Positions 20,870 through 60,501 of a stretch of 60,501 bases of DNA are shown here, in pieces. The DNA is from Sphingobacteriaceae bacterium (GTDB taxonomy: Bacteria; Bacteroidota; Bacteroidia; B-17B0; Aurantibacillaceae): the NCBI GenBank assembly GCA_947480015.1, contig CANKBS010000021.1, forward strand, positions 1 to 60,501. The letters run 5' to 3'. Made by a program: the position numbers and the translations under genes. Position 1 is the stretch's first letter. The number at the start of each line of letters is the position of its first letter. The notes beneath the pieces were generated by a model. It made no database searches and was not told the origin of the DNA. It saw nothing but the letters and a program-made list of their open reading frames with translations.

Positions 20870-20990
20870 TGGTTCGACAGGCTCACCATGACTGATTAGT
20901 GGTCATCCTGAGCAAGTTTATGCTGAGCCTGTCGAAGGATGAGCCTGTCGAAGGATGAGCCTGTCGAAGGATGAACTAGTTGAAGCATGG
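20870..20990. repeat. REP-like element with three tandem 16-bp units
   Basis: The unit GAGCCTGTCGAAGGAT occurs three times head to tail at 20925-20940, 20941-20956 and 20957-20972. It is preceded by an opposed copy fragment (TTCGACAGGCTCACCATGA near 20872) and a TCATCCTGAGC segment at about 20903, so the whole forms imperfect inverted repeats. The same triplet recurs at 59976-60023 and a single copy near 31885. This is a dispersed intergenic repeat, typical of many bacterial genomes, filling the gap between two plus-strand genes. Confidence 0.85.
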
Positions 20991-57417: not shown

Positions 57418-59871
57418 ATGAGAAAAATTATACCCTTACTAATTTTCGGCTTCCTTAGCTTAACTTTTAAAGCACAAGATTTTCTAGGCCTTCAAAGCAG
57501 CAATTACGCAGGTGTTTTAGGCGCTTTTAGTAATCCGGCCAACATTGTTGATAGCCGTTTTGTTGTTGATGTGGCCCTAGTAGGCCTGCATACAACCATC
57601 GATAATAACTACATTGGTGTGAAACGCTCGGCTTTAAAATATACCGGCAATTTAGGTAATTCAAATACCATTAAATTTCCCGATTCATGGAATAATAACG
57701 ACCCCACTTCGCCCAACTATTTTAAAAATAATTTTAATCTGGTAAATAATGGCAAGGATAAATCCATTTACATTACTAACCGCATTGTACTGCCTTCGTT
57801 TATGATTTCGCTTAACCGTAAAAATGCCATAGCCTTTAACTGGAGCGTTCGTAATTATGCCAATGTGGATGGCATCTCTCAGCAAATGGCCGATCTGGCG
57901 TATGGCGAATTTAATATCCCTAGCTTACTGAACCGTGAACTCAGTACCAAAAATTTAAGCGTGCAACAAATGGCATGGGCCGAATACGGTGTTTCTTATG
58001 CCCGTGTTTTAAAGGAAAATGGCGAACATTTTTTTAAAGCCGGTGTCACCGTTAAATTATTGCAGGGGTTAGAAGCTGCTTATTTTAATGTTAACGATTT
58101 TAAATTCAGAGTAAGCACCAAAGACACCTTTAGTTTTATTAATGCTGCCGTGGCATACGGTCACTCCGATAACCTCAATCTTAGCGGTAGCAAACCAAAA
58201 GACTTATATAAATTCACCTCTTCGCCGGGTTTTGGTTTTGATATTGGCGGGGTTTACGAATGGCGACCAAAATACTTCGATTACAAGTATAACATGGATG
58301 GCAAGACCGATTTGTGGCGAAAAGATAAAAATAAATACAAATTAAAAACCAGTTTTGCAGTAAATGATATTGGTGGTATTCGCTTTAAAAAAGGCGGACT
58401 CTCAAATGATTTTGTAGCCAACATCGATCGGTTTAATGTGAATAAATTCGCCAATCTCAACGATATTAATGGTGTAGATTCTGTATTAAAAGCAAACTTT
58501 GTAGATAAAAACACCAAAAAGAATTTTACGGTTTATTTGCCAACATCTATCAATACCCAAGTTGATTATAATATCTGGAAACCTTTTTACATTAATTTCG
58601 GCGTGAACCTTTGTAATTTTTACAAAAGTAAAGATGCCAAGGTACACGATTTTACAACCCTTAGCATTGCACCAAGGGTAGAGGGTAAGTGGTTTGGATT
58701 AACGGTGCCGGTATCGTATAATACGCTGGCCGGAAGAAGAGGCGATAACATGTTGGTTGGTGCTACCGTGCGCTTAGGGCCTATCATTGTTGGGTCGAAC
58801 GACATCTTTAATTATTTTAGTAAAGATGTGTTTGGTGCTAATTTGTATTTTCTTTTAAAAGTGCCAATACCATACGGACATAAAAGCGATCGTGATAAAG
58901 ACGGTATTAGCGATAAAAAAGATAAGTGTGTGGATGTGCCGGGTGTTTGGGAATTTAAAGGATGCCCTGATAGAGACGGGGATCATGTGCAGGATAAAGA
59001 TGACAAATGTCCTGATGAACCCGGTGTTAAAGAATTACAAGGTTGTCCTGATAAAGATGGTGATGGTATTATGGATATGGAAGATGCCTGTCCTGATTCG
59101 GCCGGAACAGCTGAGTTTAAAGGATGTCGGGATACAGATGGTGATAAAATTATTGACCGTTTGGATGAATGTCCGCTCATATCGGGTATTGCTGAGTTTA
59201 AAGGTTGTCCGGATAAAGATGCAGATGGCACACCTGATAAGGATGATGGTTGTCCGGATGCCTTTGGTCCGAAAGATTTAAAGGGTTGTCCGGATAAAGA
59301 TGCCGATGGTATTATTGACCGTGATGATCTTTGCCCTGATCAGGCCGGACCAAAAGAGAACAAAGGTTGTCCATGGCCGGATACCGATAAAGATGGTGTA
59401 TTGGATAAGGATGATAATTGTCCACAAGTACCGGGATTAGTGGAATTAAAAGGATGTCCGATTCCAAAAGCCACTGAGCCAGCGCCACAGGAAGTACCGA
59501 TGAAAGCAGCTGAGAAGAAAATTATAGAAAAAGCTTTTGCCACTTTAGAATTTGCTTCTGCTAAAGACATCATCAAACCTAAGTCCTTACCGGCTTTGGC
59601 TGATTTAGCAAAATTATTATTGGCTCATCAAGCCGACTGGAAATTAAAACTTTCGGGTCATACCGATAATCAAGGAACAGAAGCCGGCAATTTATTGTTG
59701 TCAGAAAAACGTGCCACTGCGGTGAAAAATTTCTTGATGAAAAAAGGAGTAAAAGACGAGCAGGTAATAGCCGAATGGTTCGGACAAAGCATGCCTATTG
59801 ACGATAATAAGACGCCTAAAGGAAGACAGAAGAACAGAAGGGTAGAGATGAAGATCTTACTGAAGGAATAA
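57418..59871 (+). CDS. OmpA-family outer membrane protein with seven TSP3 repeats
   Basis: An 817-residue outer-membrane protein. A signal peptide (MRKIIPLLIFGFLSLTFKAQ) is followed by an N-terminal beta-rich region of about 460 residues with LGLQSSNYAGVLGAFSNPANIVDSR at its start, like the DUF5723 porin-type domain. About residues 490-680 form seven calcium-binding thrombospondin type 3 repeats (DKDGISDKKDKC..., DRDGDHVQDKDDKC and so on), each with an Asp-rich loop and a KGCP ending. The C-terminal 110 residues are an OmpA peptidoglycan-binding domain (LKLSGHTDNQGTEAGNLLLSEKRATAVKNFL, GRQKNRRVEMKI). It likely anchors the outer membrane to the cell wall. A terminator follows after 16 bases. 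Confidence 0.9.
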   Translation: MRKIIPLLIFGFLSLTFKAQDFLGLQSSNYAGVLGAFSNPANIVDSRFVVDVALVGLHTTIDNNYIGVKRSALKYTGNLGNSNTIKFPDSWNNNDPTSPNYFKNNFNLVNNGKDKSIYITNRIVLPSFMISLNRKNAIAFNWSVRNYANVDGISQQMADLAYGEFNIPSLLNRELSTKNLSVQQMAWAEYGVSYARVLKENGEHFFKAGVTVKLLQGLEAAYFNVNDFKFRVSTKDTFSFINAAVAYGHSDNLNLSGSKPKDLYKFTSSPGFGFDIGGVYEWRPKYFDYKYNMDGKTDLWRKDKNKYKLKTSFAVNDIGGIRFKKGGLSNDFVANIDRFNVNKFANLNDINGVDSVLKANFVDKNTKKNFTVYLPTSINTQVDYNIWKPFYINFGVNLCNFYKSKDAKVHDFTTLSIAPRVEGKWFGLTVPVSYNTLAGRRGDNMLVGATVRLGPIIVGSNDIFNYFSKDVFGANLYFLLKVPIPYGHKSDRDKDGISDKKDKCVDVPGVWEFKGCPDRDGDHVQDKDDKCPDEPGVKELQGCPDKDGDGIMDMEDACPDSAGTAEFKGCRDTDGDKIIDRLDECPLISGIAEFKGCPDKDADGTPDKDDGCPDAFGPKDLKGCPDKDADGIIDRDDLCPDQAGPKENKGCPWPDTDKDGVLDKDDNCPQVPGLVELKGCPIPKATEPAPQEVPMKAAEKKIIEKAFATLEFASAKDIIKPKSLPALADLAKLLLAHQADWKLKLSGHTDNQGTEAGNLLLSEKRATAVKNFLMKKGVKDEQVIAEWFGQSMPIDDNKTPKGRQKNRRVEMKILLKE

Positions 59872-59887
59872 CTCTAGTAAAACAATT

Positions 59888-59917
59888 AAAAAAGGCCGAC
59901 ATATGTTGGCCTTTTTT
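59888..59917 (+). terminator. Rho-independent terminator of the OmpA-like gene
   Basis: The stem AAAAAGGCCGAC / GTTGGCCTTTTT with a 4-base loop ATAT (one G-T pair), followed by a T-rich tail. It begins 16 bases after the TAA at 59871. Confidence 0.88.
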
Positions 59918-59949
59918 GTTTTTTGCAAGGCATTAGCTTTCGAAGGCTG

Positions 59950-60025
59950 GTCATCCTGAGCCTGTCGGTCATCCTGAGCCTGTCGAAGGATGAGCCTGTC
60001 GAAGGATGAGCCTGTCGAAGGATGA
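59950..60025. repeat. REP-like element with three tandem 16-bp units (second locus)
   Basis: The unit GAGCCTGTCGAAGGAT occurs at 59976-59991, 59992-60007 and 60008-60023, preceded by GAGCCTGTCG and GTCATCCT (59958-59975). The triplet is identical to that at 20925-20972. It lies between the OmpA terminator and the long tandem repeat. Confidence 0.88.
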
Positions 60026-60026
60026 C

Positions 60027-60501
60027 GGCCTGAAGAGTCTGCCCTTGCAGTATGGCTAGCAGCCCCATAGTGCAGATTCTTCCGCCGCCTTCGAAATCGC
60101 TCCCATGCGGTGTCTGAATGACGTGATCCTTTAATACCTAAGTCACTCTGAGGGCATAGGAAAATTAACCTGGCCTGAAGAGTCCGCACTAGCCGGATGC
60201 TAAAGTTCAACAGACATCATGGATACATGGTGGAATCTAAAGGCTACCGTCACTCAGAGGGCACACATCGATAACCGCTGGCCTGAAGAGTCCGCCCCAG
60301 CCGTATGGCTAGCAACCCCCTAGTGCAGATTCTTCCACCGCCTTCGAAATCGCTCCCATGCGGTGTCTGAATGACGTGATCCTTTAATACCTAAGTCACT
60401 CTGAGGGCATAGGAAAATTAACGTGGCCTGAAGAGTCCGCACTAGCCGGATGCTAAAGTTCAACAGACATCATGGATACATGGTGGAATCTAAAGGCTAC
60501 C
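60027..60501. repeat. 253-bp tandem repeat running past the window end
   Basis: The block from 60027 to 60279 is repeated from 60280 to at least 60501 with the same 253-base spacing throughout. By eye there are about eight differences over the 222 bases that can be compared, most near the left end. Inside each unit a conserved segment (GTCACTC-[T/A]-GAGGGCA, then GGCCTGAAGAGTCCGC, then AGCCG-[G/T]-ATG) occurs twice, with spacings of 145 and 108 bases, separated by two different spacers. No protein-like frame is continuous through it. The left spacer holds an opposed GTCATTCAGACACC...GAAGAATCTGC segment on the other strand. Confidence 0.88.

Follow-up and report, generated by a model that had tools for sequence, protein, structure and literature searches.

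Contig C21 of this Sphingobacteriaceae genome runs out in a tandem repeat, and the question that the locus raises is what kind of element the repeat is and what has multiplied it. The window analysed here is the entire contig, 60,501 bases long, in a genome of 3.77 Mb in 66 contigs. A first-pass annotation, made from the sequence alone, described a 253-bp tandem repeat in which a conserved core alternates with two spacers, cut at its second copy and lying next to a separate REP triplet, and offered a repeat expansion, a structured RNA array or a recombination-site cluster as possible explanations. We consider it probable that the feature is a tandem array of head-to-head dimers of long-loop, GTC-tagged, REP-like hairpins, and that these form a two-part system with a nuclease as partner.

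The tandem repeat is real. It extends over 60027–60501 with a period of 253, 1.9 copies and a TRF score of 894, and its units, 60027–60279 and 60280–60501, are 96% identical over the 222 bases of the second. The conserved core holds up as well: the REP1-type core, GTCACTCwGAGGGC..GGCCTGAAGAGTCCGC..AGCCGxATG, starts at 60142, 60249 and 60395. These starts are 107 and 146 bases apart, which add up to 253, and therefore the two spacers are about 50 and 88 bases. The description as two spacers is correct but incomplete, as the longer one contains an inverted third hairpin; each 253-bp unit has three REP-like hairpins, two with the core and one inverted. Likewise, the second unit is cut, as annotated, but the window edge coincides with the end of contig C21, where the array stops, and is therefore an assembly break; the first unit is itself truncated on its 5′ side by the small-REP cluster. 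The features are listed in Table 1.

Table 1. Features of the contig-end array and of the adjoining small REPs.
Position	Strand	Feature	Remark
59949..60025	+	Small CGTC-type REP cluster (GTCATCCTGAGCCTGTCGAAGGATGA), partly amplified in 18- and 16-bp steps	
60027..60041	+	Truncated first long-loop hairpin (REP1), 3′ arm only	5′ arm cut by small REPs
60072..60123	-	REP2, inverted hairpin; minus strand reads GTCATTCAGACaCCGC...GGCGGAAGAATCTGC	Outward tag
60142..60187	+	REP1 copy: GTC tag, ACTCT/AGAGT outer stem, GA/TGA internal loop, GGC/GCC inner stem	
60188..60247	+	Alternative tail replacing REP2, with 7-bp hairpin CATCATG-GATA-CATGGTG at 60215–60232	Pairing by eye
60249..60295	+	REP1 copy, left half of head-to-head dimer	Tag from 60248
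60325..60376	-	REP2, right half of dimer with REP1 at 60249..60295	Outer arms can pair with those of REP1
60395..60440	+	REP1 copy of second 253-bp unit	
60441..60501	+	Second alternative tail	Cut by contig end

The annotated REP triplet is a 16-bp unit repeated 3.2 times at 59975–60025, after an 18-bp unit repeated 2.1 times at 59949–59985. These small REPs are a second, separate REP family of the genome, of the type that flanks a GIY-YIG gene on contig C12; both here and at 20924–20974, small CGTC-type REPs are amplified in 16- or 18-bp steps within the hairpin. Further upstream is an 817-aa gene with DUF5723, thrombospondin type 3 and OmpA domains, separated from the small REPs by a terminator-like inverted repeat at 59881–59924.

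The stems of REP1 enclose a loop of about 15–20 bases. Some copies of REP1 have ACTCA as their 5′ arm, which leaves only four outer pairs, and the tag of the copy at 60141 in the window is AGTC. REP1 and REP2 point towards each other, tags on the outside, in a head-to-head dimer, and the 107-base step consists of a REP1 followed by a different tail with a small hairpin of its own. Folded as DNA, the dimer has an outer helix between the two tags and three branches. This folding beats that of shuffled sequences only modestly (−19.8 kcal/mol, z −1.54, 13 of 200 shuffles as good), as does that of the 253-base unit (z −1.81, 11 of 200 as good). The stretches between the hairpins are themselves repeated within the 253-bp unit, on which ground a CRISPR array was rejected.

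Across relatives, the hairpin arms covary. In 56 of the 78 loci searched, 282 tagged 5′ arms were found by a search in which pairing was not required for detection, and 167 of these have their own complement, preceded by GA, at most 75 bases away; shuffled arms give 21.3 on average and 33 at most, and a different arm fits in 1.2%. Thus the structured array of the first-pass annotation is structured as DNA hairpins, but there is no RNA family to go with it: an Rfam search of 58500–60501 gave 19 weak matches, none at the gathering score. Given that result, we regard it as very unlikely that the hairpins act as RNA downstream of genes, in a structured RNA array or as an element of transcription or mRNA stability, even though the C21 array lies downstream of the OmpA-domain gene, the array at the start of C9 follows a recQ-like gene end (by eye), and many REPs are called plausibly transcribed in the accessible text of PMC3733652.

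The core is a dispersed repeat. The repeat stretch of the window finds 24 matching pieces in its own genome, window included, and the same elements are located at the ends of contigs C7, C9 (both ends), C21, C30, C32, C39, C50 and C55 and inside C6. Allowing up to three mismatches, ten stretches hold 22 5′ arms and 24 3′ arms of REP1 and 21 5′ arms and 20 3′ arms of REP2, totals that may count hairpins twice where contig ends overlap. Such overlaps are found pairwise: the last 83 bases of C21 match the inward-read end of C9 at 98.8%, C39 overlaps C50 over 176 bases (97.2%), C55 overlaps C7 over 167 bases (99.4%), and C32 overlaps C30 over 135 bases (100%). It follows that the genome probably holds about six arrays, mostly at contig ends, that broke the assembly, the adjacency of the contigs being judged from these overlaps. 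If C21 does join C9, the array continues with a third copy of the period and then gives way to unique sequence. The C9-start array begins shortly after a gene end that, by eye, resembles the recQ C-terminus.

The suspicion that the core might be a common dispersed repeat is borne out within this genome but not beyond it, where the exact sequence is nearly private. By DNA similarity, the repeat stretch matches none of 59 other genomes, its own being the only one of 60, and the exact 14-base arm occurs in one of 39 others. The genome G017 has the same kind of hairpin, with eight exact arms. Since DNA similarity found only the own genome, homology was traced by hairpin architecture and nuclease. 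A scan with a 16-base core across 257 billion bases, which gave 94 stretches from many phyla with a single match per row shown, was set aside; by our estimate, the yield is at about chance level.

The near-identical tandem units, and the 16- and 18-bp step duplications beside the array, are what passive tandem duplication would produce, that is, slippage or unequal recombination with no enzyme partner or function. Yet the same hairpins are at several separate loci, their arms covary, and in G017 the inner stems are, by eye, altered on both sides and still complementary, and we think this explanation unlikely. The annotated repeat expansion stands as an expansion of REP dimers in tandem. The recombination-site cluster, taken as an integron array, gains little support. 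Like an attC array, the repeat is tandem and palindromic, of similar unit length and with a site able to fold as a single strand, but a profile search of the genome for integron integrases gave eight matches, none over the curated cut-off (best 114.6 bits versus 265). The best of these, a tyrosine-recombinase-like match below the cut-off, is on C50 but at the far end from that contig's array, about 11 kb away. In the arrays examined, moreover, the stretches between the units are short repeated linkers, with the exception of C39, where a GIY-YIG gene intervenes. We consider an attC-like array the least credible of the explanations.

Tagged hairpins in inverted pairs have published counterparts. 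The CGTC-tagged REPs, as far as the accessible text of Di Nocera et al. (2013, PMC3733652) goes, occur in several phyla, with Bacteroidetes among five, and were reported without a dedicated transposase. Their stems are 8–9 bp, their loops are 4–5 bp and clusters of them are rare; they form head-to-head dimers with tags outside and structured spacers, and the Neisseria dRS3 repeat is a CGTC-1 REP. The array hairpins share with this superfamily, as described in that text, an unpaired CGTC/TGTC tag at one end, a palindromic body, structured spacers and head-to-head dimers with the tags outside. They differ in their stem, which here is 5 bp (4 in some) plus GA/GA plus 3–6 bp, in their loops of about 15–20 bases rather than 4–5, in the tandem arrangement of the dimers, and in being associated with a GIY-YIG gene, where the published REPs were without associated transposase genes. 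Because the stem and loop lengths depart from 8–9 bp and 4–5 bases, we file the array hairpins as a variant of the CGTC-tagged REPs and not as a strict member. As in the REP/RAYT systems (REPtron, BIME, REPIN), to the extent of the accessible account (PMC6006769), there are inverted REP pairs, the enzyme gene is flanked by its own REPs, and the types of enzyme and REP go together. In contrast to those systems, the enzyme here is a GIY-YIG nuclease and not an HUH Y1 transposase, the tag is GTC with no GTAG, and the only Y1 gene found is not flanked by the same REP. As far as we have compared them with the accessible parts of the two sources, three features have no counterpart there: the long loop with its GA/GA internal loop, the arrangement of the dimers in tandem arrays, and a GIY-YIG partner matched by lineage.

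Does the genome encode an enzyme that would go with these hairpins? The first-pass annotation had suggested looking for a nearby transposase or recombinase. An enzyme gene does lie within the sister array on C39, but it is a 100-aa GIY-YIG gene (C39:298-600), placed between two hairpin dimers. The only Y1_Tnp gene found (L040:434-895) is flanked by different repeats, for which reason Y1/RAYT was rejected as the partner of the array hairpins; by eye, it is bracketed by GCTCC...GGAGC and GTCCC...GGGAC hairpins. The C39 protein scores 55.2 bits against PF01541 (gathering score 22.6), the sole family passing its cut-off; NCBIfam gave no match above cut-off, and the nearest solved chain is a weak match, 1zg2 of UPF0213 (E 0.0078). 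All 20 aligned proteins keep residues Y10, Y21, G23, R31 and E69, which we take to be the GIY-YIG catalytic residues. A second small GIY-YIG gene of the genome, on C12, has small REPs of the 59949–60025 type on both sides, and the core of this type has 41 occurrences in the genome. The two remaining PF01541 matches sit in long frames of 613 and 470 aa. These placements suggest a two-part system of long-loop hairpins and the single-domain nuclease of C39.

The Ssn family comprises GIY-YIG site-specific single-strand nucleases, with the Neisseria NTS repeat, which we assume to correspond to dRS3. As in Ssn, there is here a small GIY-YIG protein of a single domain, and a dispersed repeat of high copy number surrounds its gene. 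Unlike in Ssn, the hairpins are long-loop dimers in tandem, the gene is embedded in the array, and single-strand cutting is presumed. A search for literature linking GIY-YIG enzymes to REPs, in which GIY-YIG or single-strand nucleases were combined with repeats, REPs and Neisseria under partial journal coverage, found none among the papers listed.

If the pairing is general, hairpins should gather at small GIY-YIG genes elsewhere. An initial, permissive definition of the hairpin also picked up tRNA T-arms and chance matches, and rules requiring the GA/GA loop took its place. The stringent rule, GTC-A-N3-N-GA...GA-N-complement, finds 98 hairpins in 214.6 kb around 71 small GIY-YIG loci of the genus, versus 6 in 383.7 kb of 20 control stretches, drawn from genomes of the same genus and unmatched in intergenic content. 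The association is non-random: tagged hairpins are about 29-fold denser at the small GIY-YIG genes, and 25 of the 71 loci are positive versus 6 of 400 overlapping 3.2-kb control windows. Five of the six control hairpins belong to one G017 array of the same architecture. The genes came from the PF01541 matches listed (L150, L151, L154–L182 and 40 more in list order). Four genes adjoining sampled ones (one with a stop), two others with internal stops and long UvrC-type frames were left out (L156 has a long frame), and L264–L268 of G017 were read but enter no count. L270, L271, L272, L275, L278, L281, L295 and L297 were added for the tree. With the looser rule, only 32 of 79 genus genes in both clades have a hairpin, 20 of them on both sides; in the 383.7 kb of genus controls the count is 7, with 10 of 209 windows positive. 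Tagged hairpins are also visible, by eye, on both sides of the gene in the eight close relatives of the C39 protein whose flanks were read.

A better control, though an imperfect one, is provided by the GIY-YIG genes beside tRNA genes. A pair of same-stem hairpins no more than 1 kb apart is found at 29 of 49 REP-clade genes, among which L219 (AAATG) looks like chance and the hairpins of L197 are of another kind, at none of 30 tRNA-clade genes and in none of 306 overlapping 2.3-kb control windows. In the tRNA clade, 23 of the 30 are labelled as beside tRNA genes; under the strict rule, 30 of the 79 genus genes are labelled neither REP nor tRNA, and the clade label of L278 rests on a chance-like element, true hairpins being visible there nonetheless. 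The tRNA-side genes have a character of their own: 22 of 30 lie on the 3′ side of a tRNA gene of the same strand, no more than 400 bp away, and in 12 of these 22 a second copy of the tRNA 3′ end follows the GIY-YIG gene (L154, L166, L175, L179, L187, L199, L203, L206, L212, L215, L220 and L297). These second tRNA 3′ ends make it look as if each such gene were a tiny element, a few hundred bases in size, that had gone into a tRNA gene. At L175 (G001), tRNA T-arm copies spaced by about 360 bases lie between consecutive GIY-YIG genes.

Of the 247 genomes searched across the phylum, 147 encode a relative of the C39 protein, own genome included. At the 29 phylum loci among the matches listed, own genome excluded, the looser rule finds tagged hairpins at 23, on both sides at 18, and none at 6; the density is 0.98 per kb (91 in 92.8 kb) versus 0.047 per kb (18 in 380 kb) in 19 phylum control stretches, where 24 of 209 windows have a hairpin. 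The hairpin type, moreover, matches the nuclease lineage, strongly, although the types were defined after viewing the data and the comparison is not blind. Four hairpin types in 28 genes need three changes on the nuclease tree, the fewest possible, as against a minimum of 9 and a mean of 12.8 in 300 shuffles of the types. The 28 are the 30 of 79 genes with a tagged hairpin in their flanks, less L170 and L200, whose commonest type is "other"; the tree, of 79 genus proteins, was built by a quick method with SH-aLRT support only, and 29 of 75 inner branches are open. Several lineages, each with its own hairpin type, coexist in single genomes: G000 (C12, C39) and G035 (L165, L192, L281).

It could still be that these are orphan REP- or BIME-like repeats moved by RAYT or host factors, and that GIY-YIG genes merely tolerate the same intergenic places. 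The genome has a Y1 transposase gene, and inverted REP dimers are, in the accessible part of PMC6006769, the classical RAYT pattern. G017, too, fits such repeats: it has hairpins on its contigs C29, C45 and C47, and the clusters read adjoin no small GIY-YIG gene among the matches listed, the nearest on C47 being about 12 kb from the hairpins. Its three small GIY-YIG loci that were read have other neighbours (5 of its 6 PF01541 matches being among those listed), so that hairpins of this kind can be present with no partner gene nearby. In G017, the nearest relative of the C39 protein is only 42% identical. At one of its loci (L264:2300-3400), two tandem GIY-YIG genes lie in near-identical direct repeats that include the upstream sequence. 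Against orphan repeats, the Y1 gene is flanked by other repeats, the array hairpins carry no GTAG tag, hairpin type tracks the GIY-YIG tree, and the tRNA-side GIY-YIG genes, also intergenic, have no repeated hairpins under the same rule. We hold this explanation to be improbable, though less so than passive duplication, and the evidence suggests that a GIY-YIG enzyme, rather than a REP transposase, partners these hairpins.

Most likely, by analogy, the nuclease recognises its own hairpins and cuts them in single-stranded form, and they are multiplied by repair. For the cutting step, the model is the Neisseria Ssn nuclease. When DNA becomes single-stranded, as in replication lag, repair or DNA uptake, the hairpins would fold; the nuclease would recognise its own hairpin type and make its cut in the single strand, at the tag or close to it. 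Copies of the dimers may then reach new sites, and arrays may expand, through repair or through template switching from one repeat to another, and such copying could carry the nuclease gene along. The anatomy of the array, the covarying arms, the non-random association and the match between hairpin type and nuclease lineage are observations; we infer the recognition step, the cutting of single strands, the spreading through repair and whatever use the host may have of the system.

More broadly, and more tentatively, with a confidence somewhat short of even, we propose that CGTC-type REP hairpins have single-domain GIY-YIG nucleases as their dedicated enzymes. The two would make up a second kind of REP system, one free of transposases, whose single-strand nuclease, specific to its hairpins, would coevolve and spread with them and build up dimers in tandem. 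If this is true, dedicated GIY-YIG nucleases would explain what moves REPs that were reported without a transposase, and the lineage-matched pairing with a nuclease of 100 residues would name a partner enzyme for the CGTC-type REPs. It would also give many natural enzyme and hairpin pairs for probing single-strand DNA specificity, and the pairing would make the origin of such repeats directly testable.
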